A DNA stretch of 42,075 nt. Source: a virus. This document shows, piece by piece, positions 2,653 through 35,555 of the stretch. Under the pieces are notes generated by a model, which was not told the origin of the DNA, searched no databases, and saw nothing but the letters and a program-made list of their open reading frames with translations. The stretch lies in the IMG/VR virus record IMGVR_UViG_3300025151_000089, positions 1 through 42,075 of that record; one strand, given 5' to 3'. The position numbers were made by a program, and so were the translations under genes. Each line of letters starts with the position of its first letter. Positions within the stretch are counted from its first letter, which is position 1.

Positions 2653-2706
2653 GTGTTTTCCTCTCTCTCTATAAATCACATATAAGCCATCTGGCATAGA
2701 TTGCAA
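2653..2706 (-). promoter_or_regulatory. Repeated promoter-operator, copy A (divergent copy)
   Basis: On the minus strand this reads TTGCAA, 16 bases, TATATG, then a TATAGAGAGAGAGGA leader ending at the ATG. It aligns base for base with copies B-F, but the central dyad has decayed: TGCCA-GA-TGGCT replaces TGACA-N2-TGTCA. A relaxed or altered operator is therefore possible. It would drive the overlapping genes from 2652 leftward. Confidence 0.6.
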
Positions 2707-2720
2707 GTAGTCAAAGTAAA

Positions 2721-2963
2721 TTAATTTTGAGCTGACACGCCGACCATCATCATGTCGGGAGTTGCGATGCAGACGTAACGCTTGCCTTCGGCCATAAGCA
2801 ATTCGTTTGCGCTGTTCATTTTGAACAATGGGTGATTTGCTTCTTCAAAGTTTTTGACAGTCTTTGGAGTGATCTTGGTGATGCGAGTGTATGTGCGGAT
2901 CAAGATAGTTTTGCCGTCTGCGATATGCTTGTTGATAAACTCAAGTGCGATTTGTGATTTCAT
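2721..2963 (-). CDS. Hypothetical protein, 80 aa, under repeated promoter copy B
   Basis: I do not recognise this gene. The protein begins MKSQIALEFINKHIADGKT and continues with a Thr/Lys-rich stretch (ILIRTYTRITKITPKTVKNF) and a C-terminal beta segment (KRYVCIATPDMMMVGVS). The ATG at 2963 is preferred to 3005 because AAAGGA lies 7 bases upstream and the conserved promoter leader ends there. It is followed by its own gap and then promoter copy A, so it may be a single-gene transcript. Confidence 0.6.
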   Translation of the reverse strand: MKSQIALEFINKHIADGKTILIRTYTRITKITPKTVKNFEEANHPLFKMNSANELLMAEGKRYVCIATPDMMMVGVSAQN

Positions 2964-3021
2964 TTCGATTTCCTTTCTCTCTCTTACACTATTAATATAT
3001 GTCACTTGTCACACATTTCAA
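2964..3021 (-). promoter_or_regulatory. Repeated promoter-operator, copy B
   Basis: On the minus strand this reads TTGAAA, 16 bases, TATATT, then a GTGTAAGAGAGAGAAAGGA leader. The spacer holds TGACA-AG-TGACA, one base away from the perfect TGACA-N2-TGTCA dyad of copies C-F. The -35, spacer length, -10 and leader match the other copies. Confidence 0.68.
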
Positions 3022-3054
3022 GTATTCCAGATAAAATTAATTACATTTAATGCA

Positions 3055-3087
3055 GAATAATTGCAGTGGTGGTGACTGCAATAATTC
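3055..3087. repeat. Imperfect inverted repeat
   Basis: GAATAATTGCAGT (3055-3067) and ACTGCAATAATTC (3075-3087) pair at 12 of 13 positions around a GGTGGTG spacer. There is no T tract on either side, so it is not a typical terminator. It shares the TGCAATAA core with the downstream direct repeats. Confidence 0.7.
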
Positions 3088-3225
3088 ACCCAGCCCAAAC
3101 CCCTTATTCTTATAGTAAATATATATATATATATTATTTATTGTATTATTACTTACTACCCTTCCTACCCCCTCTCTGGGGGAGACATGGGGGGATCTGT
3201 AGGTACTAATAATAGACTGCATTAT

Positions 3226-3300
3226 TGCAATAAATACATTAAATACTAAGCCATTGTTTTTCATACTAAAAACCCCCCTATTTACGAATGCAATAAATAC
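3226..3300. repeat. Direct repeats of TGCAATAAATAC
   Basis: Identical 12-mers lie at 3226-3237 and 3289-3300. The first overlaps a palindrome (3222-3233) and the second is followed at once by another TGCAATT. With the inverted repeat at 3055-3087, at least four TGCAAT-like units occur in 250 bases, which is iteron-like. Confidence 0.6.
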
Positions 3301-3305
3301 TGCAA

Positions 3306-3452
3306 TTAAAAATCTGGCTCACCATTCTCATCGAACTGTGGCTTTCTGTAGGTATATTGGGGTTCAGGAGCTGGTTCTGGTTTGGGCTTTTGCCTATTCA
3401 CCACTCCCAGCACCTCCAGCTCCCGAACCATGTACTCAGGCATCTCGTTCAT
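3306..3452 (-). CDS. Hypothetical protein, 48 aa, coupled to the methyltransferase
   Basis: This small protein begins MNEMPEYMVRELEVLG and then has a Pro/Glu-rich linker (KPKPEPAPEPQ) and an acidic C-terminus. Its ATG overlaps the methyltransferase stop (ATGA at 3449-3452), which favours this start over an ATG at 3566 inside the methyltransferase. The helix plus Pro-rich tail suggests a partner-binding peptide. Function unknown. Confidence 0.5.
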   Translation of the reverse strand: MNEMPEYMVRELEVLGVVNRQKPKPEPAPEPQYTYRKPQFDENGEPDF

Positions 3453-4003
3453 GGTCTGCGCTCTACAATGTATTTGGTTTCTCTTCTTGGTGTCTCTGCC
3501 CAGACTGTCCAGATGAAATCCATTGTGGCGCTCTGTCCACGCTCTGGAGACATGGCTGGCCTCCACGTCATGGCCATCACTGCCATTGGCCCAGTATCCA
3601 TGAACAGCCGCCTACGCTTCTCAGCATGCCAGTATGTTGCTTTGGTTAACATTGCAAACGGCACTTTCTTTTGGACTGATCGCTCAATAAAGTTGGAAGC
3701 CAGTCTGAATGGTGGGTTGGTTATGATGGCATCACAGGCGCAATCGGCATGGAGAAAATCCATATTGCTGTCGCCATATCCCCGATCATAAAGATCCGAA
3801 GATACTACTCTGAAGCCTCGCAGCTCCAAAACTTTTGAGATCGCCCCATCGCCACAGGCTGGCTCCCAGATGCGCTTACCCCTGAACAACCACTCAAAAC
3901 GATTGAGCAGCGCGATGGTGCATTCGGGTGGGGTGGCATAAAAGTCTGCCTTATTGCGTTTGTGTTGATCCGACTTACCGCCGATTATTGTTGATGATTT
4001 CAT
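3449..4003 (-). CDS. DNA adenine-type methyltransferase
   Basis: This 184-aa protein is probably an AdoMet-dependent DNA base methyltransferase acting on phage (or host) DNA. Motif I (WEPACGDG, residues 46-53) binds AdoMet, an acidic SSDLYD follows (68-73), and the catalytic NPPF is at 96-99, the form typical of N6-adenine enzymes. An N-terminal DFYATPPE (20-27) is common in small phage enzymes of this class. No separate target-recognition domain is visible. The ATG at 4003 is chosen over 4018 because a GAGGAG site lies 5 bases before it. A Mom-type modification gene on the opposite early arm suggests layered protection against restriction. Confidence 0.8.
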   Translation of the reverse strand: MKSSTIIGGKSDQHKRNKADFYATPPECTIALLNRFEWLFRGKRIWEPACGDGAISKVLELRGFRVVSSDLYDRGYGDSNMDFLHADCACDAIITNPPFRLASNFIERSVQKKVPFAMLTKATYWHAEKRRRLFMDTGPMAVMAMTWRPAMSPERGQSATMDFIWTVWAETPRRETKYIVERRP

Positions 4004-4014
4004 TTTCTCTCCTC

Positions 4015-6306
4015 TCAATGTTGTGGTGGTGCGAAGTATGCAAACCTTGGCTTGCCCCTCTGCCCAGCGTTAGTTTGTCTGCTTTGAATGCCGCGATCTT
4101 GCTCCAGCGCGTCCAGAACATCCTGACGGCGCTTTGGCTCCATGTTTGCAAAAGCAGAAACTGTGCGTGATATTTGCGAAGCTGTGATACCTTCGAGCCC
4201 GGATCGTTCGATCTTATCGAACACTTGCTTGCATGTTGCCTGAAATGGACCTTCGGCCATGTTTGCCCTGAACATCTCAATGGCTTGCTTGGCGTAGTGA
4301 TCAATGTAATCGATTGACCACTGCATTGCATCAATCCCGATTTCATCCTGACCCATTGATCTGGCAATGATCAGCGACAGACGCATCGCAACTTCGCGTG
4401 ATCGATTGTACATATCTTCCAGACCAGATCCGTTTTCACTTCTGATGGCATCGACCAGACGCGCTTCATAATCGCGCAGCATATCTTCAGCCTCTGGAGT
4501 GAAAGCAACTTCGATTGGATGGGGAGGCAAATCATGTGCATTGCCTGTGTCCAGATCACCCTCCTGTGCCTTGGCGTGTTCCTTCGACCAAGATGCCAGA
4601 CGCTCTGAGATTGTTGATCTGCGTTTCTTCTGAGACATCTGCACCCCGATACCAGAACGCACGATGATGAATCGGTTTAACAAACCAGACGCAACATCAC
4701 CGCCCCCGATAGCTTGCAGAAACTCTGATGGCGTGGACATGCCAACTAGCGTCAGGCTTGGCCGCTTCACTACTTTCTCCAGCTTCTCAGCCTCAGAAGA
4801 CTTCATAGTGTTAGTCGCGTAGCCTTGCTGTCTGAGCGTACCGTCTTGGCGACCAAAGCATTCCATGATGGTAGTCAATGCGTCTGCCTTGTGCTGCATA
4901 CCGCGAGCTGCTGCCGACTTGAGCTGACGCCCAAGTTCATCGACCACAGAAACATGGGTAGGCTTTTTGGTCAGAGTTGAGATGACCCCAGCCGCTGACG
5001 TGTAGCCTGCTGGCCCGATCAGTTCGTCCAGACCAGCCTGTTCAAGCAGCTCCTCCAAGACAGTCTTGGTATGCTCCTTACCAGATCCTGTTTCACCAAT
5101 GTTCAGAAAGTACAGACTGGAAAAATTTCTCTGGTCTGTGACCCATCTGCGCCCCATGACCACAGATCCAAATGCGAGTGCAGCTTGGACTGCGAACTGT
5201 GGCTGTGGCTTGATGGCTGTGACTGTGTAGTAATTTACCACGTCCTGAAGAATACCGGGAACACTCAGTAAATTTTCAGGAACATCATCTAATGGCTCTC
5301 TCTCTTTTTTGATTGGCTTGGATAAAATTTGCGCGGCAACCTTTGCGCCATGTTCGATGGCCTCTCTGTCGTATTCGTAGTCTGGATCTTGCGTCACGTT
5401 CAAAAGCTGTGCCGCATCTTTAACTGCCTTGGTCACATTGCCCTGATGCTCGTATTGCAAGAACACCTCGAAAGCATCGAAGCTGTGGGCGCTGTCAAAT
5501 GGATCTGATGCATGGTGGCTGTAGGCGCGACCATCATCGAACAACTTAACCCCAGCCAATCCAGATGAAGAGTTTGGCGATAGGTATCTGTTTCGAGATG
5601 TTGGCTTGTAGCCGTACTGCACTAATAGTGTGTGCATATCGTGCGCCTCATTATAGGCATCGATCACGGACGTGCTGTCACCTTTTGGTCTGGGCTTTCT
5701 GGTAGGCTGAAATTCTTCCTTCTTTTTCCAAGGACACATGCTCATAAGCTGTGGCCTGAAGCGATCCCACTCGCGCCATAGTGTTAGGAGCTGTGGCGGC
5801 AATTCTGGTAGCCCATCCCAGATTGGCATACCAGCCCACTCATATGGACGGCCTGTATCTGGATGTATCGATGGTGGTAGAACATCTTGCGATGGCCCAG
5901 CCCGAAGCTCGAAGACCACTTCGGTTTTGCGCGGATCATCTTTGACTGGCCAAGACAATTTCTTGATGACCAAATCAGATGGCGCTTTGAAGATGAGCTT
6001 GCCCCTGTTTTCGCGCCCGATAATCTGTGGCGCTGAGTTCATTAGATCAGAAAAGTTGATGCCCAACTCTTCGAAGATAATCTTTGTGTTTTCGACATTA
6101 TCTATATCCACAGCGCATGTGCCTGATGCGCCATGTAACAATCCCACATTATGTGTTGGGTTTTTCTCGTAATAGTCACGCGCAATTTCTGGATCTGACA
6201 ACGCCTTCTCTGGCTGCTGCCAGCCAAACTTTGTCGGCCCCTTCGATCCTGCTGGGATTGTGACCAAATACCAGCCCAGTCTTGAACAATATTCTTCTAT
6301 CTTCAT
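4015..6306 (-). CDS. Primase-polymerase/helicase fusion (prim-pol plus DUF3987-type ATPase)
   Basis: This 763-aa replication protein should prime DNA synthesis and unwind DNA. The N-terminal prim-pol domain has the metal-binding AVDIDN (65-70), then ELRAG (133-137) and VLPPSIHPDTGRPYEW (142-157), the hallmark of phage bifunctional primase-polymerases. The second half is a P-loop helicase-like ATPase: GETGSGKEH (404-412) is Walker A and HVSVVDELG (451-459) is Walker B, as in DUF3987 proteins. No family A or B DNA polymerase is seen in the window, so synthesis probably relies on the host or on this domain. The start overlaps the HTH gene by ATGA. Confidence 0.82.
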   Translation of the reverse strand: MKIEEYCSRLGWYLVTIPAGSKGPTKFGWQQPEKALSDPEIARDYYEKNPTHNVGLLHGASGTCAVDIDNVENTKIIFEELGINFSDLMNSAPQIIGRENRGKLIFKAPSDLVIKKLSWPVKDDPRKTEVVFELRAGPSQDVLPPSIHPDTGRPYEWAGMPIWDGLPELPPQLLTLWREWDRFRPQLMSMCPWKKKEEFQPTRKPRPKGDSTSVIDAYNEAHDMHTLLVQYGYKPTSRNRYLSPNSSSGLAGVKLFDDGRAYSHHASDPFDSAHSFDAFEVFLQYEHQGNVTKAVKDAAQLLNVTQDPDYEYDREAIEHGAKVAAQILSKPIKKEREPLDDVPENLLSVPGILQDVVNYYTVTAIKPQPQFAVQAALAFGSVVMGRRWVTDQRNFSSLYFLNIGETGSGKEHTKTVLEELLEQAGLDELIGPAGYTSAAGVISTLTKKPTHVSVVDELGRQLKSAAARGMQHKADALTTIMECFGRQDGTLRQQGYATNTMKSSEAEKLEKVVKRPSLTLVGMSTPSEFLQAIGGGDVASGLLNRFIIVRSGIGVQMSQKKRRSTISERLASWSKEHAKAQEGDLDTGNAHDLPPHPIEVAFTPEAEDMLRDYEARLVDAIRSENGSGLEDMYNRSREVAMRLSLIIARSMGQDEIGIDAMQWSIDYIDHYAKQAIEMFRANMAEGPFQATCKQVFDKIERSGLEGITASQISRTVSAFANMEPKRRQDVLDALEQDRGIQSRQTNAGQRGKPRFAYFAPPQH

Positions 6307-6482
6307 TGCGAATCACTCAGGTAGTCGCTGAGTTTTTTCCATGTGTTCAGGCTGATTTGTTCGTTGCCTGTGGCAATTGCTTTGACTGTCGGATGAGACA
6401 GCCCACACTTCTCCGCAACCACTGTTAAACGCCTGTCTTCTAAGGCTTTTCGTATGTCATCGATTGGCATTAGGTTTGTCAC
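6303..6482 (-). CDS. Small Cro/CI-like helix-turn-helix protein
   Basis: This 59-aa protein is a probable DNA-binding regulator. Residues 10-55 form a compact HTH (LTVVAEKCGLSHPTVKAIATG as helices 2-3), followed by TWKKLSDYLSD as in XRE/Cro proteins. I chose the GTG at 6482 because AAGGAG lies about 6 bases upstream; an internal ATG at 6470 is too far from it. It is the first gene of the leftward operon and sits beside an inverted repeat at 6529-6555 that overlaps the rightward promoter. A role as repressor of the divergent promoters is the natural guess. Confidence 0.68.
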   Translation of the reverse strand: MTNLMPIDDIRKALEDRRLTVVAEKCGLSHPTVKAIATGNEQISLNTWKKLSDYLSDSQ

Positions 6483-6515
6483 TTTCTTCTCCTTTTTGAT
6501 ACAAATTTGCATATT

Positions 6516-6555
6516 TTGTAAAAAGATCTTTACAGAATAAAATAATTTCTGTAAA
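6516..6555 (+). promoter_or_regulatory. Divergent control region: promoter overlapping a 9-bp inverted repeat
   Basis: A rightward promoter reads TTGTAA (6516-6521), 16 bases, TAAAAT (6538-6543). This -35 and spacing match the repeated promoter family. An inverted repeat TTTACAGAA (6529-6537) / TTCTGTAAA (6547-6555) has its left arm between -35 and -10 and its right arm just after the -10, an ideal operator position. Leftward elements are weaker: a TTTACA on the minus strand could serve as a -35. The HTH gene alongside is the likely cognate repressor. Confidence 0.55.
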
Positions 6556-6594
6556 CCGATTTTTGTAGAGAAAGAAAAAGTGAAAGGAATTGCC

Positions 6595-6972
6595 ATGAGC
6601 AATGTAGACGGTTTAGCCGCCCAATGGCTACAATTAAAGGCGCAAGAAAAACAATTAATCGCAAAGCGCCATACGATAGAAGCCCAAATCACCAAGGCGT
6701 TGGACGCCAAAGATGAAGGCACAATAACTCACCTACTAGATCAGCACAAAATTTCGTTGACACAGCCTGTCACGCGCAAGGTTGATGCGGTTCAGTGGGA
6801 TAAAGTTAAAGACAAAATTCCAGAGCATATGCATCCAGTTAAGCACAGCATTTCTGCTGATGCTGTTGGCTGTCGTTATCTGGCAGAAAAAGAGCCTGTT
6901 ATGTGGCGCAAGATCGCAAAGGCGTTTGAAACAAAACAAGGTAAAATTGGCGTGAAAGTAGAGGTGCTATAA
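6595..6972 (+). CDS. Conserved early protein, 125 aa, N-terminal coiled coil
   Basis: This is the first gene of the rightward operon. Residues 8-50 are a helical, charged segment (AAQWLQLKAQEKQLIAKRHT) likely to form a coiled coil. The rest is a basic mixed fold (VTRKVDAVQWDKVKDKIPEH). Proteins of this kind often lie directly before Sak4-like ATPases in phages, so a recombination or single-strand-DNA accessory role is plausible but unproven. The ATG at 6595 has AAAGGA 6 bases upstream; a GTG at 6580 is the alternative. It ends directly against the next start. Confidence 0.6.
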   Translation: MSNVDGLAAQWLQLKAQEKQLIAKRHTIEAQITKALDAKDEGTITHLLDQHKISLTQPVTRKVDAVQWDKVKDKIPEHMHPVKHSISADAVGCRYLAEKEPVMWRKIAKAFETKQGKIGVKVEVL

Positions 6973-7731
6973 ATGGCCATAAATTTAAAACAACTATCGA
7001 AACCGACAGGACAGCGACCAATCATCGCTACACTGTTTGGCGAAGGCGGCATGGGTAAAACTACCCTAGCTGCCATGTTCCCGAAACCTGTGTTTATCCG
7101 AACTGAGGATGGCACAGCGAGCTTGCAAGGGAATGATGAAGTAAGTCTGTTTCCAATCGCAACATCGAGTGACGATGTTTTGAGCGCGATTGAGGCGCTG
7201 GCGACAGAAACGCATGAGTTCAAAACTGTGGTGATTGATAGCATCACTCAGTTGGCAACGATGGTCGAAAGTGAGATCGTTGCAGCAGATCCCAAGGCAA
7301 AGTCAATCAATCAAGCTGGGGGTGGTTATGGCGCTGGGTACAGCACAGCCGCTGAGAAGCATCGCCAGATCCGTGAATGGGCTGGAGCTTTGGCTTATGA
7401 CAATGGCATGAATGTGGTCTTTATTGGTCACGCGGATACAGAGACTTTGGATCTGCCAGACATGGACCCATTTGCCAGATACACAGTGCGGATGCACAAG
7501 AAGGCAATTCCGCACTACACTGATAATGTCGATCTGGTCGGGCTTATTCGACTGAAGACATTTACGAGAGGCGATGGTGAAAAGAAACGCGCCATCTCAA
7601 CTGGGGAACGTGAAATCCTGTGCTTTCCACAGGCGTCGAGCGTTACCAAAAATCGTTTCAACATCACTGAACCGCTGCCATTCACGTTTGATGGCGGCAA
7701 TCCATTCCACCAGTATTTAGCAGAAGGATAA
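6973..7731 (+). CDS. Sak4-like RecA-fold ATPase (AAA_24), single-strand annealing/recombination
   Basis: This 252-aa P-loop NTPase has Walker A GEGGMGKTT (23-31) and Walker B FKTVVIDSIT (83-92). The later VFIGHAD segment belongs to the RecA-type core. This minimal RecA fold, next to a DUF669 protein and an exonuclease, is the Sak4 type of phage recombinase thought to assist annealing with single-strand-binding protein. It should act in phage DNA recombination and repair. The gene begins immediately after the previous stop and lies 5 bases before the DUF669 gene. Confidence 0.78.
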   Translation: MAINLKQLSKPTGQRPIIATLFGEGGMGKTTLAAMFPKPVFIRTEDGTASLQGNDEVSLFPIATSSDDVLSAIEALATETHEFKTVVIDSITQLATMVESEIVAADPKAKSINQAGGGYGAGYSTAAEKHRQIREWAGALAYDNGMNVVFIGHADTETLDLPDMDPFARYTVRMHKKAIPHYTDNVDLVGLIRLKTFTRGDGEKKRAISTGEREILCFPQASSVTKNRFNITEPLPFTFDGGNPFHQYLAEG

Positions 7732-7736
7732 TCAAA

Positions 7737-8207
7737 ATGGATCTTAATGGCTTTAACGCACTCAACCACGAACCTGTAACCTCTTTTGATCCGCTACCAG
7801 CGGATTGGTACAAGTGCGTGATTACTGACACTGAAGAACGTCAGACCAAGGCAATGGATGGCTCATACTTGCAGCTTACCATTGAGGTGATCGAAGGACC
7901 GTTTTCTGGTCGAAAAGTTTTTGATCGCTTAAACCTGAACAATAAAAACCAGACTGCTGTTGAGATTGCTCAACGCGCTCTGGCATCGATTTGTCGAGCA
8001 GTCGAAGTTCCGAACCCAAAGAACAGCGACGAGCTGCGCGACAAACCTTTGATGGTAAAAGTGTCAGTACGACCAGCAGAAAACGGCTACGATGCATCTA
8101 ACGATGTTAAGGGTTATGACGCTGCGTCAGGATCTTCAGCATCTGTAGCTGTGGCAGCAGAGCCAGCAGTGGCTAACGGATCTGCAACGCCACCTTGGAA
8201 ACGCTGA
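7737..8207 (+). CDS. DUF669 family protein, likely ssDNA-binding
   Basis: This 156-aa protein has the DUF669 pattern: a start with LPADWYKCVITDTEERQTK (20-38), then GSYLQLTIEVIEGPFSGRKV (42-61) and FDRLNLNNKN. The C-terminus is low in complexity (Ala/Ser/Gly, about 120-150) and ends PPWKR, a flexible tail. DUF669 proteins accompany phage Sak4/RecA-like recombinases, and single-strand-binding protein activity is proposed for the family. That role is inferred here from family and context. Confidence 0.75.
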   Translation: MDLNGFNALNHEPVTSFDPLPADWYKCVITDTEERQTKAMDGSYLQLTIEVIEGPFSGRKVFDRLNLNNKNQTAVEIAQRALASICRAVEVPNPKNSDELRDKPLMVKVSVRPAENGYDASNDVKGYDAASGSSASVAVAAEPAVANGSATPPWKR

Positions 8208-8221
8208 GTTCAGTTTTTGGG

Positions 8222-8242
8222 ATGGGGCGCGTGTCGCCCCAT
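8222..8242 (+). other. Perfect 8-bp stem-loop in the early rightward transcript
   Basis: ATGGGGCG (8222-8229) and CGCCCCAT (8235-8242) pair perfectly around CGTGT. There is no T tract, so it is not a standard terminator. It lies just after the DUF669 gene and may protect or attenuate the mRNA. Confidence 0.6.
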
Positions 8243-8265
8243 TACATGAACAGAAGGAGAGTGAA

Positions 8266-8415: not shown

Positions 8416-8476
8416 GTACATCGTCATTCATACTGGTGTTGTGATTATCCTAGCTTTGATTGGAGTAATTTCTTGA
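8408..8476 (+). CDS. Possible 22-aa single-span membrane peptide
   Basis: An ATG overlapping the end of the previous gene (ATGCTTGA) opens a 22-codon frame that is almost entirely one hydrophobic helix (IVIHTGVVIILALIGVIS). Its TGA overlaps the exonuclease ATG (TGATG), so it sits in a perfectly coupled chain. The geometry supports translation. There is no close ribosome site of its own, and function is unknown. Confidence 0.42.
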   Translation: MLEYIVIHTGVVIILALIGVIS

Positions 8477-12658: not shown

Positions 12659-12716
12659 TTGTAATCTATGACAGATGTCATATATGTAAGGTGTAGAGAG
12701 AGAGAAAGGAAACACT
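12659..12716 (+). promoter_or_regulatory. Repeated promoter-operator, copy C
   Basis: TTGTAA (12659-12664), 16 bases, TATATG, then a GTGTAGAGAGAGAGAAAGGA leader up to the ATG at 12717. The spacer holds the perfect dyad TGACA-GA-TGTCA (12669-12680). A TGCCCCTA segment just upstream is shared with copy D. Confidence 0.72.
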
Positions 12717-13070
12717 ATGAAAATCATCGTACAACATGCAGATCACAATCGTGAAACTGGAGAAATCACTAGCTATACAAATGTAGCAGAAGTTAACGGA
12801 TCACGTTTTGAAGACGTAGATCAGGCACTTGAGTATGCTTACCGCTACACAAACAATGTCATGGGTTCTTGGTCTATCAAGAAAGAATTTTTGCCAATGC
12901 GTGATGGCGGCGAAATGCCAAACGGCGACTACAATGACGATGTTACTGTATTGCGTCATCGTCCAGATGGCATGGGTCAGAGATCAACAATGATGGGTGA
13001 TCGCATGATTGTTAACGGACAAACTTATGAAGTTGCAGCGTTTGGTTTCAAAATGATGGAGGAGGTGTAA
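12717..13070 (+). CDS. Hypothetical protein, 117 aa, under promoter copy C
   Basis: This protein begins MKIIVQHADHNRETGEITSY and has an aromatic segment (QALEYAYRYTNNVMGSW) and a Met/Gly-rich C-terminal half (PDGMGQRSTMMGDRM). AAAGGA lies 6 bases upstream in the conserved leader. It resembles small acidic early proteins of phages, possibly host-directed, but I recognise no family. The next gene starts within its stop (TAATG). Confidence 0.6.
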   Translation: MKIIVQHADHNRETGEITSYTNVAEVNGSRFEDVDQALEYAYRYTNNVMGSWSIKKEFLPMRDGGEMPNGDYNDDVTVLRHRPDGMGQRSTMMGDRMIVNGQTYEVAAFGFKMMEEV

Positions 13071-13390
13071 TGAGACTATACATGAACAGCAAAGGCGAAT
13101 GGTTTGGCACACAGGCAGACGCTCGCCGCAATTCACCAAGAAACTGGACAGAGGTCGATGTACCGACATCAAAACAGGATCTGCTAAACTGGCTCAACGA
13201 AAACAAAGTCGGAGGCATTCAGCAGAGCGCCTCAGAGCCTCGCCCAGCGCCAGAGCCGAAGTCTGAGCTGCTGTCGCCCCACGCAGCATCTTGGGTCGCA
13301 TGGTCGCTCGACAACCTCAAGCGCGGCAACAAAAAAGATGCCGAAGAAATGCTGGCCAAAGGATTGAAGATTCAAAGAGAGTGGGCATAA
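13070..13390 (+). CDS. Hypothetical protein, 106 aa
   Basis: The N-terminal part (MRLYMNSKGEWFGTQADARR) resembles a small fold of the kind that begins many early phage proteins. A Pro/Glu-rich linker (RPAPEPKSE, about 58-66) then leads to a helical C-terminal segment (DNLKRGNKKDAEEMLAKGLK). A strong GGAGGAGG ribosome site precedes it. The stop codon lies inside the terminator hairpin. Function unknown. Confidence 0.58.
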   Translation: MRLYMNSKGEWFGTQADARRNSPRNWTEVDVPTSKQDLLNWLNENKVGGIQQSASEPRPAPEPKSELLSPHAASWVAWSLDNLKRGNKKDAEEMLAKGLKIQREWA

Positions 13391-13406
13391 GCCCATTCTT
13401 TTTTTT
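13382..13406 (+). terminator. Rho-independent terminator
   Basis: TGGGC (13382-13386), loop ATAA, GCCCA (13391-13395), then T-rich sequence to 13406 including eight T in a row. The loop includes the end of the preceding gene's stop codon. It separates the copy C and copy D transcripts. Confidence 0.82.
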
Positions 13407-13416: not shown

Positions 13417-13470
13417 TTGTAATCTGTGACAGATGTCATATATATATAATGTAGAGAGAAAGGAAACACT
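13417..13470 (+). promoter_or_regulatory. Repeated promoter-operator, copy D
   Basis: TTGTAA (13417-13422), 16 bases, TATATA, then a TGTAGAGAGAAAGGA leader. The dyad TGACA-GA-TGTCA is at 13427-13438. It is identical to copy C over most of its core, and the leader ends in AGGAAACACT in both, just before the ATG. Confidence 0.74.
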
Positions 13471-13656
13471 ATGAACAAATTTTCAGTTACTTATGAAATC
13501 GGTGAAAAAAATAACCCCGATACAATTTGCACCCGCTTTGTAAAAGCAGAAGATGCTGACATGGCAGTAGTAAAAGTTTTGGCAGAAAAAACCGAAGATG
13601 GTTATCCGTTAAGCACAGTCATCATGCTTCGCATCACAAAAGTGGAGCGCGTGTAA
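13471..13656 (+). CDS. Hypothetical protein, 61 aa, under promoter copy D
   Basis: This small beta-rich protein (MNKFSVTYEIGEKNNPDTI, then FVKAEDADMAVVKVLAEK) resembles short phage domains of alternating strands and a helix. Its stop overlaps the next start (TAATG), so it is co-translated with the cysteine-peptidase-like gene and may act with it. Function unknown. Confidence 0.58.
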   Translation: MNKFSVTYEIGEKNNPDTICTRFVKAEDADMAVVKVLAEKTEDGYPLSTVIMLRITKVERV

Positions 13657-14399
13657 TGAAAAATCTAAACATCAAACCAGTCAATCACGGCACAACCAAA
13701 GCTGACAAAAATCGCTATTGTGGCCCAGCCGTCATCAGCGCCATCACTGGCATGACAACTGGAGAGGCATCACGGTTGATCCGTCACGTCAGTGGCCGTA
13801 AGGCCATCAGAGGATCTTCAGTTCGTGAAGTCACAGACGCACTGACTATGTGTGGCATCAAGAGCGAGTACAAGTCATTCGGCATGAAGCTGGGTCGCTC
13901 CACTGGCCCAACACTTGCTGGATGGCTGAAGGCCACAGTCAAAGAGCGCACTGCTGATCGCGTGTTCTTGATGATCGCTGGGTGGCACTGGCAGTTGATC
14001 CAAGGTCGCCGCATCGTCTGTGGCATTCTTGGCAGTCCAACGTCTGTCCGTGACAAGCGCGTCAAACGCAGAGCGCGTGTTGCCAACGTCTACGAGCTTC
14101 ATTCCACTGGAGCCATCACAACGCCCACAGAGGCTAAAAAGCCTAAGAGTGTTGATACCAACCGAAACCACCGTTCCAAGGCTCAGAGCCTCGCTAAGAA
14201 GCTGGGCATCACCATTGAGATTGAACGCTGGTTTAGCTCAGACATTAACAAGTACGAGAATGTCTACTGGATTCAGTATGAAGGTGACTTCGACTACTCT
14301 GAGAATGGCATCATCGACGGCCACTGCTCATATGACTGGCAAGAGGTGTTTTGGAAGCTCCAAGAAATCGAGCAGCACCAACAAAAAAAAGCAGCATAA
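13656..14399 (+). CDS. Cysteine-peptidase-like protein (C39/papain-like fold)
   Basis: This 247-aa protein has an N-terminal domain matching papain-like/C39 peptidases: NRYCGPAVISAITGM (19-33) provides the catalytic Cys22, and AGWHWQLIQGRRIVCG (108-123) the catalytic His (about 111) in the usual H-[FYW]-x-x beta strand. A third residue cannot be fixed by eye. The region after about residue 130 is basic and Arg/Lys-rich; the C-terminus is acidic with aromatics. There is no ABC-transporter part, so it is not a bacteriocin exporter. It may cleave a host or phage protein early in infection, which is inference from its position in the accessory regulon. Confidence 0.62.
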   Translation: MKNLNIKPVNHGTTKADKNRYCGPAVISAITGMTTGEASRLIRHVSGRKAIRGSSVREVTDALTMCGIKSEYKSFGMKLGRSTGPTLAGWLKATVKERTADRVFLMIAGWHWQLIQGRRIVCGILGSPTSVRDKRVKRRARVANVYELHSTGAITTPTEAKKPKSVDTNRNHRSKAQSLAKKLGITIEIERWFSSDINKYENVYWIQYEGDFDYSENGIIDGHCSYDWQEVFWKLQEIEQHQQKKAA

Positions 14400-14404: not shown

Positions 14405-14424
14405 GAGGCTTCGGCCTCTTTTTT
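14405..14424 (+). terminator. Rho-independent terminator
   Basis: GAGGC (14405-14409), TTCG loop, GCCTC (14414-14418), followed by six T. It ends the copy D transcript and lies 12 bases before promoter copy E. Confidence 0.85.
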
Positions 14425-14435: not shown

Positions 14436-14491
14436 TTGTAATCTGTGACAACTGTCATTATATAATAGGTATAGAGAGAGAGGAACTTAAC
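14436..14491 (+). promoter_or_regulatory. Repeated promoter-operator, copy E
   Basis: TTGTAA (14436-14441), 16-17 bases, TTATAT/TATATA, then a TATAGAGAGAGAGGA leader. The dyad TGACA-AC-TGTCA is at 14446-14457. It directly follows the terminator at 14405-14424. Confidence 0.72.
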
Positions 14492-15061
14492 ATGGCATAC
14501 AACCCAACACATGAATATGAGCATCGCTACCACCCAGCAATCGAAGCTCGCAAAATGGCTAACGCCGCCAACACTAAGCGCAAAAACTGGATTGCCACTG
14601 ATGATCGCGCAGAAGAAATCATCGAATTTGTTTCTGATTACAATTCAGATGGCGAAGGCTTTTTCTCAGCTTGTGCAAAAGGTATTGAGAAGTTTGGATC
14701 GCTTACACCTAACATGCGTAACGCTATGGTTAAGGTGCTGGACAAACGTGCCGCACAAGCCGCTGAGTGGGCTACCAGAGATGGCAAGTGTGAGTTTGTT
14801 GGCACAGTGGGCGAGCGTCAGGCTTTCGAAGTCACAGTGAAGCATATCGTGGAGCTGGAAGGCATGTATGGCATTTCATATCTTCACATTTGCCGTGACG
14901 CTGATGACAATGTAATCATCTACAAAGGCACACAATACTGGGGTAAAGGCGCTCAAGTAACTTTCATGGCCAAAGTAAAAGATCATGGCGTCCGTGATGG
15001 TGTAAAGCAAACCATCATCCAGCGCCCTACAAAAGTAAAAATAAATGGGGAGGATTACTAA
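14492..15061 (+). CDS. Hypothetical protein, 189 aa, under promoter copy E
   Basis: This protein begins MAYNPTHEYEHRYHPAIEAR and has a helical basic region, a central segment (AEEIIEFVSDYNSDGEGFFS), and a C-terminal beta-rich half with TVGERQAFEVTVKHIVELEG. The second half resembles small OB- or beta-barrel phage domains, but I recognise no family. I chose the ATG at 14492 because the conserved leader and a GAGGA site precede it; longer versions would start inside the previous gene. Its stop overlaps the next start as TAATG. Confidence 0.62.
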   Translation: MAYNPTHEYEHRYHPAIEARKMANAANTKRKNWIATDDRAEEIIEFVSDYNSDGEGFFSACAKGIEKFGSLTPNMRNAMVKVLDKRAAQAAEWATRDGKCEFVGTVGERQAFEVTVKHIVELEGMYGISYLHICRDADDNVIIYKGTQYWGKGAQVTFMAKVKDHGVRDGVKQTIIQRPTKVKINGEDY

Positions 15062-27695: not shown

Positions 27696-27698
27696 TGT

Positions 27699-30642: not shown

Positions 30643-30659
30643 ACTTTTATATCCTTATA

Positions 30660-31085
30660 TTAATCAATGCGGATCAATCCAGAAGCGCCCGGATCTGGGA
30701 ACACAATTCTGAATGTACCTGAAGTTACTGTAAAATCACCGCCAAAACTTAACACTGCAATTGCTTGCTTGCCAGCAGTTGTGTCATTGTAGATCAATGC
30801 GCCAGCCGTTGTGAATGTAGCTGATGTCCATTCTGGGTTATTAAAGTCAACATGTGCTGTTGTGCCAGTGGTTCCAATTGTAGCACCAGTCAAAGTCTCA
30901 CCACCTGTTGTGTATCCATTGCCGTTTGCAACTTCTCCAGACGCACCTGTATATGTTGTTGTTGCAGCACCTAAACTTGCTGATGAAGTAAAAAGTGCGA
31001 TTTTGATTGTATCAGAATCAAGGTCTTGCTCTTTCTGAAACAAGTCTTCCTTGAAGCTGGTACACATTGCTTGAGTAATAGCCAT
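30660..31085 (-). CDS. Virion structural protein, 141 aa
   Basis: The protein begins ITQAMCTSFKEDLFQKEQDL, then DTIKIALFTSSASLGAATTTY, a motif sequence common in phage tail or neck proteins (xIKIALYTSSA followed by YxxxGE). It is Thr/Gly-rich and beta-type and ends FRIVFPDPGASGLIRID. It is overlapped by the adaptor gene (TAATG) and precedes the tail fibre. Probably a minor tail or fibre-base protein. Confidence 0.65.
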   Translation of the reverse strand: MAITQAMCTSFKEDLFQKEQDLDSDTIKIALFTSSASLGAATTTYTGASGEVANGNGYTTGGETLTGATIGTTGTTAHVDFNNPEWTSATFTTAGALIYNDTTAGKQAIAVLSFGGDFTVTSGTFRIVFPDPGASGLIRID

Positions 31086-31711
31086 TATAAGCCTCCATTA
31101 TATTCTGCTGCGTAGTCTCGCTGCATCTCTTGTACAAATAATTGCACTGCTTCGTCAAATTGTGTCTTATAAAGCGTCAAAGTTTCTCCAGCTTTAAGAA
31201 AAGCTGATGCTTCATAAAGACACGCTGCTAATAACACATTTTCTGCGTTATCTCCAATCCAAGTATTCGCATTACTTGAACTCAAGCCTGTTTCTGGGGC
31301 GATAAAATCAACTTGATAAGTTGAAGTAGTGGCATCTGGAGTTGGTGCAACAGTGATTGTTGTTCCTCCAGTGGCTGCTGTTTTGGTGCTATACATTTCT
31401 GGAACGCCTTGAGTTGTGGCGTTTGGCCAGTAATCACGCAAATAAGAATCAACTCTGTGATTAAGATAAGAAGATACATTCGATGTAATAATTGAAACCT
31501 GTCTAATCATTCTTGCCGAAGGCACAACATAATCTGACGTGCCTTGCACAAGGCTTGCTGATGTTGTTTGCCTAAAACACGGCAAGTTTGGTAGGCGCTG
31601 AAAGATCATCTCTTCAGCCTGTGTTATGATTTCATCAATAGAAGCTGACAGCTCTGCGCTATCGTCTTCTAAGAAGTTTTGAATATTACTTACCAATTGT
31701 GTGTAATTCAT
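31085..31711 (-). CDS. Head-tail adaptor-like protein, 208 aa
   Basis: The protein starts with a helical section (LVSNIQNFLEDDSAELSASI, then IDEIITQAEEMIFQRLPNLP), a Pro-rich turn, then beta-rich segments and a C-terminal helix (EASAFLKAGETLTLYKTQFD). This helix-beta-helix layout is shared by podovirus adaptors such as P22 gp4 and T7 gp11. It should join portal and tail. It is similar in layout to the neighbouring 226-aa protein; one may be an adaptor and one a second ring protein. Confidence 0.62.
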   Translation of the reverse strand: MNYTQLVSNIQNFLEDDSAELSASIDEIITQAEEMIFQRLPNLPCFRQTTSASLVQGTSDYVVPSARMIRQVSIITSNVSSYLNHRVDSYLRDYWPNATTQGVPEMYSTKTAATGGTTITVAPTPDATTSTYQVDFIAPETGLSSSNANTWIGDNAENVLLAACLYEASAFLKAGETLTLYKTQFDEAVQLFVQEMQRDYAAEYNGGL

Positions 31712-32643
31712 TAACCATTACCCCACGATCCATTATTCCATGCATTATTACCCCATCCAACTGCTGTCTGTACAGCCGTTCCATCGCCGATTGCACCTGT
31801 ACCAGCCAAGCCTGTTTCGGATATTTCAGATTCTGCAACTTCAGTTCCTGTTGCACCAACACCGCCAAGACCAGTAACTGGTTCAACAATAACATTAAAA
31901 TCACTATTAGCGCCAGTTCCAATAATATGAACAGCGCCAGTACCAGCTACGCCTGTTACATCGAAGTCTTGCTCAAGAGTTGATGTTCCAATCGCACCTG
32001 TGCCAGCTACGCCTGTGATGACTTCTTCTTGCTCAAATGTTGATGTACCAACACCACCTGTGCCAGCTACGCCTGTTTCTTCAATTTCAGACTCTGGAAC
32101 TTCAGTACCAACAGCTCCTGTGCCAGCCAAACCTGTGACTGGTGTACCAAACACAAGATCTCCAAGTGCGCCAGTTCCTGCAACACCTGTTGCGTTAAAG
32201 TCTTCTGATATAACAACTTGATAAGTTCCAATAGCGCCTGTACCAGCCGCTGCATCTATAGCTGGGTTTGCAAAGACTGTGCCTACAGCGCCTGTACCAG
32301 CCACTCCAGTGACTGTAATCTCCATTTCTATAAAGTGTTTAGTAGAAATAGAACCATGAGCTGGTACGCCCACAGGTGGGCGCTGACGTTGATCTAAGAA
32401 TATGTCGTAGTTGTATCCAACAAAAAACGTAACATTTTCGGGATCATTGTCTGGACGTGGATTAAAAAGAGCTGTTGCATCGACAACATTTCTGGCTGGT
32501 GTAAGCTGTGGTTGTTTTGGCTCCCAATCGTCTGGAGATACGCGCAAGCCATCCCAAGTTGTTTTGAGGTCAGTATATTTGACCCTCAAACCACCTCTGT
32601 CGCTTATTGCTAGGGATTTTTTTCCTCTTGCGAATTTGCCCAT
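31711..32643 (-). CDS. Virion protein with nine-fold GVAGTGAVGT repeats, 310 aa
   Basis: The N-terminal 100 residues are a basic/beta region (KFARGKKSLAISDRGG, then RVSPDDWEPKQPQLTPA). Residues 112-286 consist of about nine repeats of GVAGTGAVGT separated by around ten variable, mostly acidic residues, forming a predicted beta or Gly-rich shaft. The end is Asn/Gly/Trp-rich (GNNAWNNGSWGNG). It lies between two adaptor-like genes. A flexible extension or decoration on the neck is a plausible role. I do not know a function for this repeat. Confidence 0.6.
   Translation of the reverse strand: MGKFARGKKSLAISDRGGLRVKYTDLKTTWDGLRVSPDDWEPKQPQLTPARNVVDATALFNPRPDNDPENVTFFVGYNYDIFLDQRQRPPVGVPAHGSISTKHFIEMEITVTGVAGTGAVGTVFANPAIDAAAGTGAIGTYQVVISEDFNATGVAGTGALGDLVFGTPVTGLAGTGAVGTEVPESEIEETGVAGTGGVGTSTFEQEEVITGVAGTGAIGTSTLEQDFDVTGVAGTGAVHIIGTGANSDFNVIVEPVTGLGGVGATGTEVAESEISETGLAGTGAIGDGTAVQTAVGWGNNAWNNGSWGNG
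31786..32310. repeat. Tandem-like coding repeats (about 60-bp period)
   Basis: About nine copies of a ten-codon GVAGTGA[VI]GT core lie in residues 112-286 of the 310-aa protein at roughly 20-codon intervals. On the plus strand the core appears as repeated CCAGCTACGCCTGT-type segments. This could be a hot spot for expansion or loss by recombination. Confidence 0.85.
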
Positions 32644-33323
32644 TAATATAAATTCAGCGCAGTTGGCTGAACCCTCAAAGAAACGCCGTCATTGTCAGAT
32701 GCCGCTGCAAAGTTAAATGCGCGTTCATACATCTCATTTAGCATTGAAAACTTTTCAGGTGCAAACTTCATAGATAATTTACTGGCTAAACCAGCACAGA
32801 TACATTCATTCCATCGATATGGAATGTCTGCGTCTTGGTTTGATGCTGTGACATCTTCGAGCTGTCTGATTGCCCAGTACACCATACTATATGTTGTGGT
32901 ATCTGGAACTTGCCAAAAATAAATAACAGGCGTGAATTGCTTATCTAACATATACTGGCTTGGTTTGCCGCCAGATGTTTTGTTTGGAAGCTGGTTATAA
33001 TCTGCAATCGACACACGATTGATAAGTTGATCAGAGTTTGTACCAGTTCCACTGTCGCGTATAACTGCGCTTATGATGTCGATTGTTCCTGCTGGCAGTG
33101 TGTAAGACGCTGTGCCGTTCACCAGTGTTAGTGTTTGCTGATCTACAGCCCAGTAGTTAATACCTCTGTTTGCCCACTCAGAGAAGAGCAGATTGAGGCT
33201 ACGCCTAGCAGAAACTGCTTTGTCGCCTGTTTGCGTTTGCGTATCAATATTGCAGCGTTCAAATGCCTCAGTAATAATTTCTTCTACATTTGGTCGAAAC
33301 GCCACTGTTCCTGAAGTAGCCAT
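32643..33323 (-). CDS. P22 gp4/T7 gp11-like adaptor (tail tubular A) protein, 226 aa
   Basis: The N-terminal helices (NVEEIITEAFERCNIDTQTQ, then AVSARRSLNLLFSEWANRGI) are typical of podovirus adaptor proteins. QQTLTLVNGTASYTLPAGTI (63-82) forms the familiar strand pair. The C-terminal region (YRWNECICAGLASKLSMKFA, then MLNEMYERAFNFA) completes the fold. It should bind the portal ring. The start has AGGAG, and a terminator lies just upstream (33336-33362). Confidence 0.72.
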   Translation of the reverse strand: MATSGTVAFRPNVEEIITEAFERCNIDTQTQTGDKAVSARRSLNLLFSEWANRGINYWAVDQQTLTLVNGTASYTLPAGTIDIISAVIRDSGTGTNSDQLINRVSIADYNQLPNKTSGGKPSQYMLDKQFTPVIYFWQVPDTTTYSMVYWAIRQLEDVTASNQDADIPYRWNECICAGLASKLSMKFAPEKFSMLNEMYERAFNFAAASDNDGVSLRVQPTALNLY

Positions 33324-33335
33324 AAATCACTCCTA

Positions 33336-33362
33336 ATTTTGAAAAGGTGGCCGAAGCCACCT
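33336..33362 (-). terminator. Candidate rho-independent terminator or attenuator
   Basis: On the minus strand AGGTGGC, TTCG loop, GCCACCT (33345-33362) is followed by only four T (TTTTC). It lies between the 137-aa gene and the adaptor gene, inside the late operon. It may reduce, rather than stop, downstream transcription. Confidence 0.6.
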
Positions 33363-33365
33363 AAT

Positions 33366-33779
33366 CTAATATTCTTTAGCTACGCGCAAAACTACCTGAT
33401 ATGCATCTCCAGCCGCACCAGCTCCTGTTGTGGTGAATTTAACGTCACCAGTTGGACTTGTGCCATAAGAAGAGCTTGCAGGAAGCCCACCAAATTTTTC
33501 GAAACTATGATAGCCTTGTTGATTTTCAGCCAAGTGCATGATGATAATATCAGTGCTTGCGTCTGCCAGCACCTCTACTGTCATGCCTTGAATGATCCAC
33601 CAACACTCTAGAATTTTCACGCCTGTGCATGTGTCTCCATTTGAGTTTTTAACAAGTGAAGAAACATCAATTTTACTTACTGCGCTTTCGTCACCAGTAT
33701 CGACATATTGATACTGAAAAGCAAACACAGCTTCGCGTGGGTTATCTTCTATCGTAGTTGTTGTTACGATATCAGCCAT
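33366..33779 (-). CDS. Virion structural protein, 137 aa
   Basis: The protein is beta-rich, with VFAFQYQYVDTGDESAVSKI (18-37), a hydrophobic Trp-rich segment (ECWWIIQGMTVEVLADASTD) and GDVKFTTTGAGAAGDAYQVV near the end. It has the look of a small neck or decoration protein. The start overlaps the AT-hook gene's stop as TGATG. I recognise no named family. Confidence 0.6.
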   Translation of the reverse strand: MADIVTTTTIEDNPREAVFAFQYQYVDTGDESAVSKIDVSSLVKNSNGDTCTGVKILECWWIIQGMTVEVLADASTDIIIMHLAENQQGYHSFEKFGGLPASSSYGTSPTGDVKFTTTGAGAAGDAYQVVLRVAKEY

Positions 33780-33943
33780 CAGCTATCCTTTTTCTTTGGT
33801 GGACGGCCACGCTTTTTCTTAACAGGTTTTTCTTCCCATGCCTCATTTACATCAGGCGTGGATGGATCATCTGCTTTGAGCGTACCATCTTTGTTTCTAG
33901 CTCGAACCTTCTTTCGAGGGTTCATCATGTTTAGCTTACCCAT
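33779..33943 (-). CDS. Small AT-hook-like basic protein, 54 aa
   Basis: The protein is basic at both ends: an N-terminal MNPRKKVRARNKDG and a C-terminal KKKRGRPPKKK in which RGRPP is an AT-hook-like core (about residues 45-49). The middle is acidic and Pro-rich. AT hooks bind the minor groove of AT-rich DNA, but in a virion cluster the motif could also help package or bind DNA at the neck. It overlaps the following gene by TGATG; the start has only a weak AGGTG site. Confidence 0.6.
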   Translation of the reverse strand: MGKLNMMNPRKKVRARNKDGTLKADDPSTPDVNEAWEEKPVKKKRGRPPKKKDS

Positions 33944-33950
33944 GCGTCAC

Positions 33951-34433
33951 CTATGAAACGGCTGCGCTAAATGGAGTTGCTTCTGATCCAGTAGCTGATT
34001 GGTTAATTAAAACACGAAACTTGTTTGAAGCAACGTCTTGGATTTCAATGTGACCTCCAAGAATACCGCCAGTTGTAGTACCATTTAAAGTAATCGTGTC
34101 ACTATCTGCTGCTGTTTCAAAAATAGATGCTGTCGCGTCACTATCGTTTGCAACCACTGCAACACCTGACATTGTGTCATTGGCGTTAGCAACTTGGATC
34201 TTGTAACTGTTAGAAGTTACAGTTGTCTGAACAAAGAAACTATATGTATTGCCAGTTCCAGACGCTGCTGGAAGTGTTAAGGTTGCGCCTGACGCTACAT
34301 TAAGGTTCATTGTACGTCCTGCATGAGATGCAGATGTAATTGTTGCGTCTGCTGTAATAGAAACCAGAGAATCTGAACCGCTAATAAAACCAGCAGTAGA
34401 AGTCACTGGACCTGAAAATGTGGATGAAGCCAT
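33951..34433 (-). CDS. Virion structural protein, 160 aa
   Basis: The protein is Ser/Thr/Ala-rich and beta-type (SSTFSGPVTSTAGFISGSDS, then ITADATITSASHAGRTMNLN, YSFFVQTTVTSNSYKIQVAN), typical of phage head-decoration or fibre-like proteins. I chose the ATG at 34433 because AAGGGG lies 9 bases before it; a longer frame to 34538 begins in non-coding leader. It is the first late gene after the accessory insert. Confidence 0.62.
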   Translation of the reverse strand: MASSTFSGPVTSTAGFISGSDSLVSITADATITSASHAGRTMNLNVASGATLTLPAASGTGNTYSFFVQTTVTSNSYKIQVANANDTMSGVAVVANDSDATASIFETAADSDTITLNGTTTGGILGGHIEIQDVASNKFRVLINQSATGSEATPFSAAVS

Positions 34434-34545
34434 AGTATAATACCCCTTGCACAAGGTTTCGCCATGCAGTCTGTGCAACGTCAGGTGGGGCGTTCTCCTG
34501 TCTGCAAGGCTAATGTTACCCCAATCGCAGAATAACACATTTGTC
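34434..34545 (-). other. Non-coding leader with a possible stem-loop
   Basis: This leader of about 110 bases lies between a terminator and the 160-aa gene. On the minus strand TTGCACA and TGTGCAA (around 34445-34480) can pair around an 18-base loop just upstream of the ribosome site. I see no convincing promoter, although one is needed if the terminator at 34546 works well. A structured leader or leaky terminator is possible. Confidence 0.35.
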
Positions 34546-34575
34546 TAAAAAAGAAAGAGGCGACTTTCGCCGCCT
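34546..34575 (-). terminator. Rho-independent terminator of the accessory insert
   Basis: On the minus strand AGGCG, an 8-base loop, CGCCT (34558-34575) followed by TTTCTTTTTT. It ends the short transcript started at promoter copy F. Confidence 0.75.
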
Positions 34576-34582
34576 TTGTTTG

Positions 34583-34630
34583 TTATTCTTCTTCTGCAAA
34601 TTCTTCATTGCATCTTACGCACATTGTCAT
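34583..34630 (-). CDS. Possible 15-aa CxxC micropeptide
   Basis: A 15-codon frame MTMCVRCNEEFAEEE starts in a TGATG overlap with the zinc-ribbon gene upstream. It has one CxxC and a strongly acidic end. The coupling suggests it could be made, and it might be a half zinc knuckle. It could equally be chance. Confidence 0.3.
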   Translation of the reverse strand: MTMCVRCNEEFAEEE

Positions 34631-34893
34631 CACGCTTTTTCAACTTTTTTATACGTTGCCTTGCCTATCACATTGGGCGAATTCCTAACAGACTTCGCAT
34701 CCCACTCGTCTTTGGTCATCCAGTTGCGTCCACTCTTGTACTCGTAGACGACAACCACGTCTGGCATTTCTTCGTATTCCTCGCGCTTTTTTTCTTCATA
34801 GCATGTTCCGCAAAAATGCCACCCATAATCTGGCTGATATTCCCCTTCTGTTGCATTGCAATGGACACATTGCTTTCTATCTGAGTTGCTCAT
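34630..34893 (-). CDS. Small zinc-ribbon protein, 87 aa, in the accessory insert
   Basis: The N-terminal zinc ribbon has two CxxC pairs (CVHC at 9-12 and CGTC at 28-31) separated by 15 residues, then an acidic/Lys helix (EEKKREEYEEMPD) and a basic end containing NWMTKDEWDAKSVR. The ATG at 34893 has AAAGGA 6 bases upstream. A longer frame to 35220 is a shadow of the preceding gene. It may bind DNA or protein; function unknown. Confidence 0.58.
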   Translation of the reverse strand: MSNSDRKQCVHCNATEGEYQPDYGWHFCGTCYEEKKREEYEEMPDVVVVYEYKSGRNWMTKDEWDAKSVRNSPNVIGKATYKKVEKA

Positions 34894-34906
34894 CTTTCTT
34901 CCTTTC

Positions 34907-35500
34907 TTAAAATGGTGTTTCGTAGCCAGCTTCGATTGGGCAATCGTATCCACCCATATGATCGTAACGCTCTTCTGCCCAACGCAGTGCAGCGCGTTCT
35001 GCTTCTTGCTCGTAAATGTATGCGTCTTTTTCGCTATCCCATTGTGCAGCGTACTCTTCACGATCTGCGATTGCTTCGCGGATTGCTTTGAACATATCGT
35101 TGCGATTTGCATGACGTAGTTCAACTTCTTGATTAGCTTCGTCTGCGCGTAGTGTGCATACCCATGATTTTTCCATTGGGAAGTTTGACACCATACCCAT
35201 TTCGCGTTCTGTGCCGTCATGTAGCTCCATCATGATGTCCCACGCTGGCACACCTTTGCCACAACGAACTGCGCGAAGCTTGAAGCTATCGATGTAACGC
35301 TGACGATCAATCACAGCTTGCTTCTCGTCTTCAGCGTCTTTAAGTTTACGGATCAAATCACGCGCAGCTTTGACAGCTTTATAAGTGCTGCAATCTCCAT
35401 CCCAGTTTTCTTCTGGATAAATTTCGTGAAAGCCGTCTGCTAGAACGTCATCTAGTGCGCGTTCCATGTCGTTTAGGTTATATAGTTTTGAGTTTTTCAT
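34907..35500 (-). CDS. Acidic helical accessory protein, 197 aa, under promoter copy F
   Basis: This protein begins MKNSKLYNLNDMERALDDVL and is acidic and helical throughout, with a beta-type middle (WDIMMELHDGTEREMGMVSN) and a C-terminal Glu/Arg-rich helix (ADREEYAAQWDSEKDAY). I chose the ATG at 35500 because the conserved purine leader ends there. It is the first gene of a short insert between capsid and neck genes and shares its promoter type with early genes, so it is probably expressed early, unlike the structural genes around it. Confidence 0.62.
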   Translation of the reverse strand: MKNSKLYNLNDMERALDDVLADGFHEIYPEENWDGDCSTYKAVKAARDLIRKLKDAEDEKQAVIDRQRYIDSFKLRAVRCGKGVPAWDIMMELHDGTEREMGMVSNFPMEKSWVCTLRADEANQEVELRHANRNDMFKAIREAIADREEYAAQWDSEKDAYIYEQEAERAALRWAEERYDHMGGYDCPIEAGYETPF

Positions 35501-35555
35501 TTTTCTTTCCTCTCTCTCTACAATACTAATATATGACAAGTGTCACGAATTACAA
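35501..35555 (-). promoter_or_regulatory. Repeated promoter-operator, copy F
   Basis: On the minus strand this reads TTGTAA (35555-35550), 16 bases, TATATT, then TTGTAGAGAGAGAGGA leading to the ATG at 35500. The perfect dyad TGACA-N2-TGTCA is at 35534-35545. It lies just after the capsid terminator. Confidence 0.73.

Follow-up and report, generated by a model that had tools for sequence, protein, structure and literature searches.

Six promoter–operator sites shared by a virus and its relatives, with a MarR-fold protein as candidate regulator

Overview

The virus record IMGVR_UViG_3300025151_000089 was analysed over its whole length of 42,075 nucleotides (nt), referred to below as the window. 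It carries six copies of one promoter–operator module, sites A to F, distributed over both strands (Table 1). Scanning of related phages with a matrix built from the six sites revealed the same architecture at five sites in phage CRP-901 and six in phage CRP-902. The initial annotation had proposed these six sites, with their positions and strands, as a phage-wide promoter–operator regulon; all six were found in place and the proposal is supported. A group of Roseobacter-infecting ocean viruses carries one and the same switch upstream of numerous small genes that are unrelated to each other. Our preferred explanation, which we hold to be probable though far from certain, is that a MarR-family phage repressor binds the dyads in the spacers of these accessory-gene promoters, so that the gene cassettes are on at entry and off later. 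The words ‘promoter’, ‘motif’ and ‘repressor’ are absent from the paper describing CRP-901 and CRP-902.

Table 1. Sites of the module and associated features in the window
Feature	Position	Strand	Details
Site A	2653–2706	-	TTGCAA, 16-nt spacer, TATAT, GAGAGAG leader; variant dyad TGCCAGATGGCT at 2685–2696; first gene 2365–2652 (-); head of the operon extending to the MarR gene
Site B	2964–3021	-	asymmetric operator TGACAAGTGACA at 3000–3011; gene 2721–2963 (-)
Site C	12659–12716	+	perfect dyad 12669–12680; genes 12717–13070, 13070–13390
Site D	13417–13470	+	perfect dyad 13427–13438; genes 13471–13656, 13656–14399
Site E	14436–14491	+	perfect dyad 14446–14457; 17-nt spacer; gene 14492–15061 (phrog_27218, unknown function)
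Site F	35501–35555	-	perfect dyad 35534–35545; genes 34907–35500, 34630–34893
MarR-fold winged-helix protein	1371–1700	-	109 amino acids; CRP902_gp02 / CRP901_gp02; proposed dyad repressor
NrdR-like zinc ribbon	1702–1899	-	adjoins MarR; disfavoured as dyad regulator
Gene 1099–1374	1099–1374		other neighbour of MarR
Cro/CI-type helix-turn-helix gene	6303–6482	-	own operator; putative second circuit
TTTACAG-N13-CTGTAAA dyad	6529–6555		divergent promoter of the helix-turn-helix gene and the 6580 gene; followed by a GTAGAGA leader, like the dyad promoters
Terminator	13374–13403	+	directly upstream of site D
Terminator	14405–14418	+	directly upstream of site E
Terminator	35588–35609	-	precedes site F; shared with CRP-901 and CRP-902
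Terminator	34558–34575	-	ends the F cassette
F cassette	34558–35587 (ends approximate)	-	two genes with their promoter and terminator, placed between capsid gene and next structural gene

Structure and conservation of the module

The perfect dyad TGACA-N2-TGTCA previously noted in sites C, D, E and F is present in all four, and the operator of site B differs from it by one base, as had also been noted; this asymmetric operator is identical in CRP-902. A 16-bp spacer had been assigned to every copy, which is correct for A, B, C, D and F but not for E, where one additional T gives 17 nt. The number of copies exceeds chance expectation by far. Among 100 dinucleotide-preserving shuffles of the window, the exact dyad (four observed) occurred with a mean of 0.06, the combination TTGNAAT-N3-dyad (four observed) was absent from every shuffle, and the arrangement TTGNAA...AGAGAGA...ATG (six observed) reached a mean of 0.04 and a maximum of 1. 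No known RNA element was found with Rfam, and no tRNAs were found.

A DNA pattern search matched 17 viral contigs, and the dyad-plus-leader pattern matched 34. One of the latter (L206, genome G051) was a chance match that lacked a promoter and was rejected as a carrier of the module. The 89 distinct genuine sites that were kept were divided by their neighbouring genes into 65 right-arm sites and 24 sites in the left operon, which contains the MarR gene. The 22-nt core, TTGtAATcTgTGACAnnTGTCA, hardly varies among the right-arm sites: every position except 10, 16 and 17 reaches at least 1.67 bits. Positions 16 and 17 form the dyad centre; no correlation between position 10 and its mirror position 23 was seen by eye. 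The dyad lies at a fixed distance from the -35 element, TATAT follows mostly 16 or 17 nt after it, and the purine-rich (G/A)TAGAGAG leader, which runs up to the ATG, begins at position 36 or 37. The hexamers TTGNAA and TATAT are therefore mostly spaced as in sigma-70-type promoters (16–18 nt), and we read the module as an alphaproteobacterial promoter of this type with an operator inside the -35/-10 spacer. Since CRP-901 and CRP-902 have no phage RNA polymerase gene (PMC10149686), the host polymerase should use these promoters. Recent duplication, which had been suggested, is not supported as a general origin of the copies, since the module is found across an entire clade in which Prim-Pol identity is only 84–95%.

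Distribution in host genomes

Among the GTDB genomes, the full pattern was detected once, on contig LGRT01000016.1 (L069) of Rhodobacteraceae bacterium SB2. This contig encodes homologues of genes of the phage studied here. The genome of SB2, a member of the host lineage (3.6 Mb), contains three exact copies of TGACANNTGTCA, all on this phage contig, and the regulator is therefore probably phage-encoded. Several copies at phage promoters and none in the host are the pattern of dispersed operators of a phage repressor.

The phages rely on host RNA polymerase, and the outer half-site TGTGA...TCAC is similar to CRP-type sites; a transcription factor of the CHAB-I-5 roseobacters, borrowed by the phage, could thus bind the dyad. 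We consider this improbable. No TGACANNTGTCA occurs outside the phage contig in SB2, which is not the isolation strain, 40 other genomes of the family contain 0–6 copies each, and the dyad is wholly absent from sister phages of the same group.

SB2 belongs to CHAB-I-5 and shares 99.78% 16S identity with FZCC0083 (PMC10149686). Its assembly includes a contig of 6.6 kb from a phage of the CRP-901 type, which suggests that this phage was present in the culture; SB2 is stated in PMC12075776 to have been lost later from cultivation.

A MarR-fold protein as candidate regulator

The protein encoded at 1371–1700 was modelled with AlphaFold2 (pLDDT, predicted local distance difference test, 83.6). Foldseek gave the MarR structure 3bpx as the best match, and the top PDB matches were MarR, BpsR, PcaV, AbfR and MexR. 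Together with profile matches to MarR chains in PDB, this identifies a MarR winged-helix fold. The protein also matched phrog_9665, a transcriptional regulator, with an E value of 1e-14. All matches to NCBIfam and Pfam models were below the curated cut-offs, and we therefore limit the assignment to the MarR fold and PHROG 9665, with no curated MarR subfamily.

Each of the records covering both the MarR slot and the right-arm sites has either both MarR and the dyads or neither. MarR and perfect dyads occur together in the window, CRP-901, CRP-902, G042, G058 and L037. Both are absent from phages G052, G053, G083, G087 and G092, where the zinc ribbon and the 1099–1374 gene are present; in G053 and G083, the two genes flanking the MarR slot adjoin. 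Binding of the dyads by a phage repressor is proposed from this joint presence and absence.

The initial annotation had named small helix-turn-helix, MarR-like and zinc-ribbon proteins as well as host factors as possible regulators. MarR is the best candidate, with predicted binding, because it shares the distribution of the dyads and because the two other phage proteins do not fit. The zinc ribbon is absent from G042 (L085), which retains MarR and the sites, and present in the five site-less phages listed above. The Cro/CI-type protein has a dyad of its own, TTTACAG-N13-CTGTAAA, which is conserved, with one arm variant, in all phages compared, including those without MarR. This supports the earlier suggestion of a second, different control circuit at the helix-turn-helix gene. 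A host factor is disfavoured by the SB2 data.

Two further observations concern this region. The NrdR-like zinc-ribbon gene is unannotated in CRP-901 (678–872) and CRP-902 (607–801), although its product is 81–92% identical. A protein of 192–193 amino acids adjoins the regulator slot (L214:1728–2303 in G052; L085:16009–16587); its weak matches to the C-terminal domain of RNA polymerase alpha and to sigma-70 region 4 make it a possible transcription factor.

Graded operators in the MarR operon

Perfect dyads were found at none of the 24 MarR-operon sites, as opposed to 61 of the 65 right-arm sites (Fisher test on the raw lists, 9e-18, a descriptive value given that the copies are related by descent). 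In 13 of these 24 sites, both arms are changed, with C–G replacing A–T at the same pair. Copy A had been regarded as decayed. In CRP-902, the same promoter has a perfect variant dyad, TGCCAGATGGCA, and in CRP-901 it has TTCCAGATGGCA. Because the perfect TGACA-N2-TGTCA dyad is absent from all MarR-operon sites and more than half of them show the paired change, copy A is a variant that has been conserved. Most simply, the MarR operon would have weaker operators and escape full repression.

The following sequence of events would account for these features. On phage entry, host RNA polymerase would transcribe the small accessory-gene cassettes. The MarR repressor, made from promoters A and B, would build up and bind the 12-bp inverted-repeat operator as a dimer, thereby blocking the polymerase and shutting the cassettes off. 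With the degenerate operators of promoters A and B, the MarR operon would be repressed less and later and would continue at a lower level, which amounts to graded negative feedback. The sequences themselves show the module and its conservation, its specificity for phages, its joint distribution with MarR, the difference between left and right operators, the cassettes and the insertion at site F; binding by MarR, repression as the direction of control and the early timing are what we infer.

Several points weigh against this explanation. The phages with MarR fall into a single group on the Prim-Pol tree (support 90/99), and the co-occurrence of MarR and dyads represents a single gain or loss; other clade-specific genes therefore share the pattern of MarR. 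The variants in the left arm could be the targets of a different regulator, and MarR could in principle be an activator. No Pfam or PHROG function was found for any product of the cassette genes. Finally, the exact TGACANNTGTCA was not found in those early regions of T7-like phages with related MarR proteins that were inspected.

The first of these points leaves some room for the same regulon under a different clade-specific phage protein, either the product of an unknown small gene or the DNA methyltransferase (3449–4018), with MarR merely linked. The association of MarR and dyads is one event, and the gene behind site A and the methyltransferase gene are among others that likewise have no match in G052 and G053. 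We regard such a regulator as a less likely, though still realistic, alternative: no clade-specific protein other than MarR has a recognised DNA-binding fold that would suit a short dyad, methylase targets are not expected only at promoters, and the zinc ribbon and the Cro-like protein are disfavoured by the distributions given above.

Activation, or antirepression, by MarR or another protein would make the cassettes middle genes that are switched on from a weak promoter (TTGTAA / TATATG). The deviation of both hexamers from consensus and the constant distance of the dyad from the -35 element are in line with this. It is nevertheless unlikely, since operators placed within the spacer generally act by blocking polymerase, activation of the MerR type requires a spacer of 19–20 nt as compared with mostly 16–17 nt here, and most MarR proteins are repressors.

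Accessory-gene cassettes and the insertion at site F

The first genes behind the module belong to about 20 unrelated families. The gene at 13070–13390 is preceded by three different first genes, namely that of site C in the window, gp25 in CRP-901 and an orthologue of the site D gene in CRP-902, and these units are therefore cassettes. Intrinsic terminators lie directly upstream of sites D, E and F, and another follows the genes of site F. Each unit consists of a promoter with its leader, one or more genes and a terminator; such units are swapped, and at site F one is inserted among structural genes.

In CRP-901 and CRP-902, the locus of site F is empty: a terminator lies between the capsid gene and the structural gene after it. 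The window has this terminator too, and after it come site F with its two genes and a further, similar terminator. Contig L196 carries both site F and the F gene at this position. The earlier suggestion that genes are gained as modules together with their promoters is thus supported at this locus. Lambdoid morons are a known kind of such insertions, and the F cassette can be classed as a moron between structural genes, since its promoter, genes and terminator stand between genes that adjoin in relatives. The promoter of lambdoid morons is autonomous, whereas that of the F cassette belongs to a phage-wide operator regulon; its operator suggests control by the regulon rather than expression independent of the lytic programme.

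Operator replacement in a sister clade

Gene E is present in further phages, and 12 of 48 contigs have the TGACA dyad at its promoter. Phages of the G053 clade share the promoter frame and leader, which there enclose TACTC-TATT-TAGTGTA, an imperfect copy of another dyad. This dyad, TACTA-N4-TAGTA, is present in G053 and its relatives at two further promoters, one in the left operon (imperfect) and one on the right. Several dispersed promoters of this clade therefore carry a different dyad at the same spacer position. The left operon of the G053 clade encodes, upstream of its zinc ribbon, a 113-amino-acid protein with weak helix-turn-helix matches, which is a first candidate for the regulator of this dyad.

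The near-identity of the copies and their conserved leader might also result from shared ancestry, if a strong promoter and leader had been copied together with genes and the dyad had no regulator. This is very improbable: free variation in the core is limited to the dyad centre and position 10, the two arms changed together at 13 of the 24 MarR-operon sites, and where MarR is absent gene E still has the promoter frame and leader, around a different spacer dyad. Under regulation by a phage repressor, the dispersed regulon may have changed its operator in concert with the repressor, in the manner of immunity types, while promoter frame, leader and genes persisted, and the repressor may also serve as an immunity or quiescence factor. 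We put this forward tentatively, as somewhat less likely than its opposite.

TACTA-N4-TAGTA in the same spacer, with a GTAGAGAG-type leader, was seen in G053 (L215–L217; for example at 6213, 19135 and 41601 of G053), G055, G083, G086 and G087. Other gene E promoters (L267, L268; L242, L243, L270; L237–L241) have further spacer sequences, some of them with inverted repeats such as GTCTC-N6-GAGAC in L268, and these suggest still more operator types.

Comparison with known systems

The closest working analogue is the SPBRE/MrpR system of Bacillus phage SPbeta, in which a short conserved element is present in about ten dispersed promoter regions and is recognised by the master repressor MrpR (PMC10516654). 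In both cases, one phage repressor, whose binding is a prediction in the phages studied here, is associated with a short element at dispersed promoters, most of which precede genes without a known function. MrpR, which maintains lysogeny, is built on a tyrosine-recombinase fold, whereas the protein described here has a MarR fold, its operator lies in the spacer and no integrase was found.

Stoperators and start-associated sequences, like morons, share single features with the module. The stoperators of cluster A mycobacteriophages are also numerous repressor sites distributed over the genome, and their sequence changes with the repressor among related phages (PMC6550527, PMC9283540). They are asymmetric 13-bp sites within transcription units, number up to 30 per genome and also halt elongation, whereas the sites described here are few, symmetric and each within a promoter. 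The start-associated sequences (SAS) and extended SAS (ESAS) of cluster K mycobacteriophages resemble the module: they are repeated at the start codons of non-structural genes that are unrelated, an inverted repeat lies next to them, their consensus is clade-specific and they are absent from the host (PMC3203893). SAS coincide with the ribosome-binding site, and no promoter has been assigned to the imperfect 17-bp repeats; in the module, positions can be given to the -35, the -10 and the operator.

The relatives of the MarR protein are MarR regulators adjoining integrases in T7-like phages (CRP-113 group; HTVC200P and HTVC119P), with 27–40% identity. The MarR protein of LUZ100 was proposed to regulate lysis–lysogeny by repressing at phage promoters (PMC10134795), and a related protein is proposed to repress at phage promoters here. 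The regulator of the temperate T7-like phages (Autographiviridae) adjoins an integrase and has the RNA polymerase gene as its proposed target, whereas the phages studied here have neither gene and a different dyad, and the neighbours of their MarR gene are the zinc ribbon and the 1099–1374 gene. Inspection by eye revealed inverted repeats (TTACACC-AT-GGTGCAA, TACACCAGTGTA) upstream of the polymerase gene in CRP-113, CRP-171, CRP-125, HTVC200P and HTVC119P; these TTRCACC-type repeats are possible MarR sites.

Biological significance

The module represents a testable regulon and predicts which small unknown genes are co-expressed. It is also a marker for new accessory genes, as any gene behind the module qualifies, and the clades compared form a natural series for studying the joint change of a repressor and its dispersed operators. 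Relatives of this phage have been described as strictly lytic; no integrase is annotated in CRP-901 and CRP-902, and the paper describing them reports no lysogeny genes. Their description as ‘strictly lytic’ would have to be revised should the repressor silence the genome.

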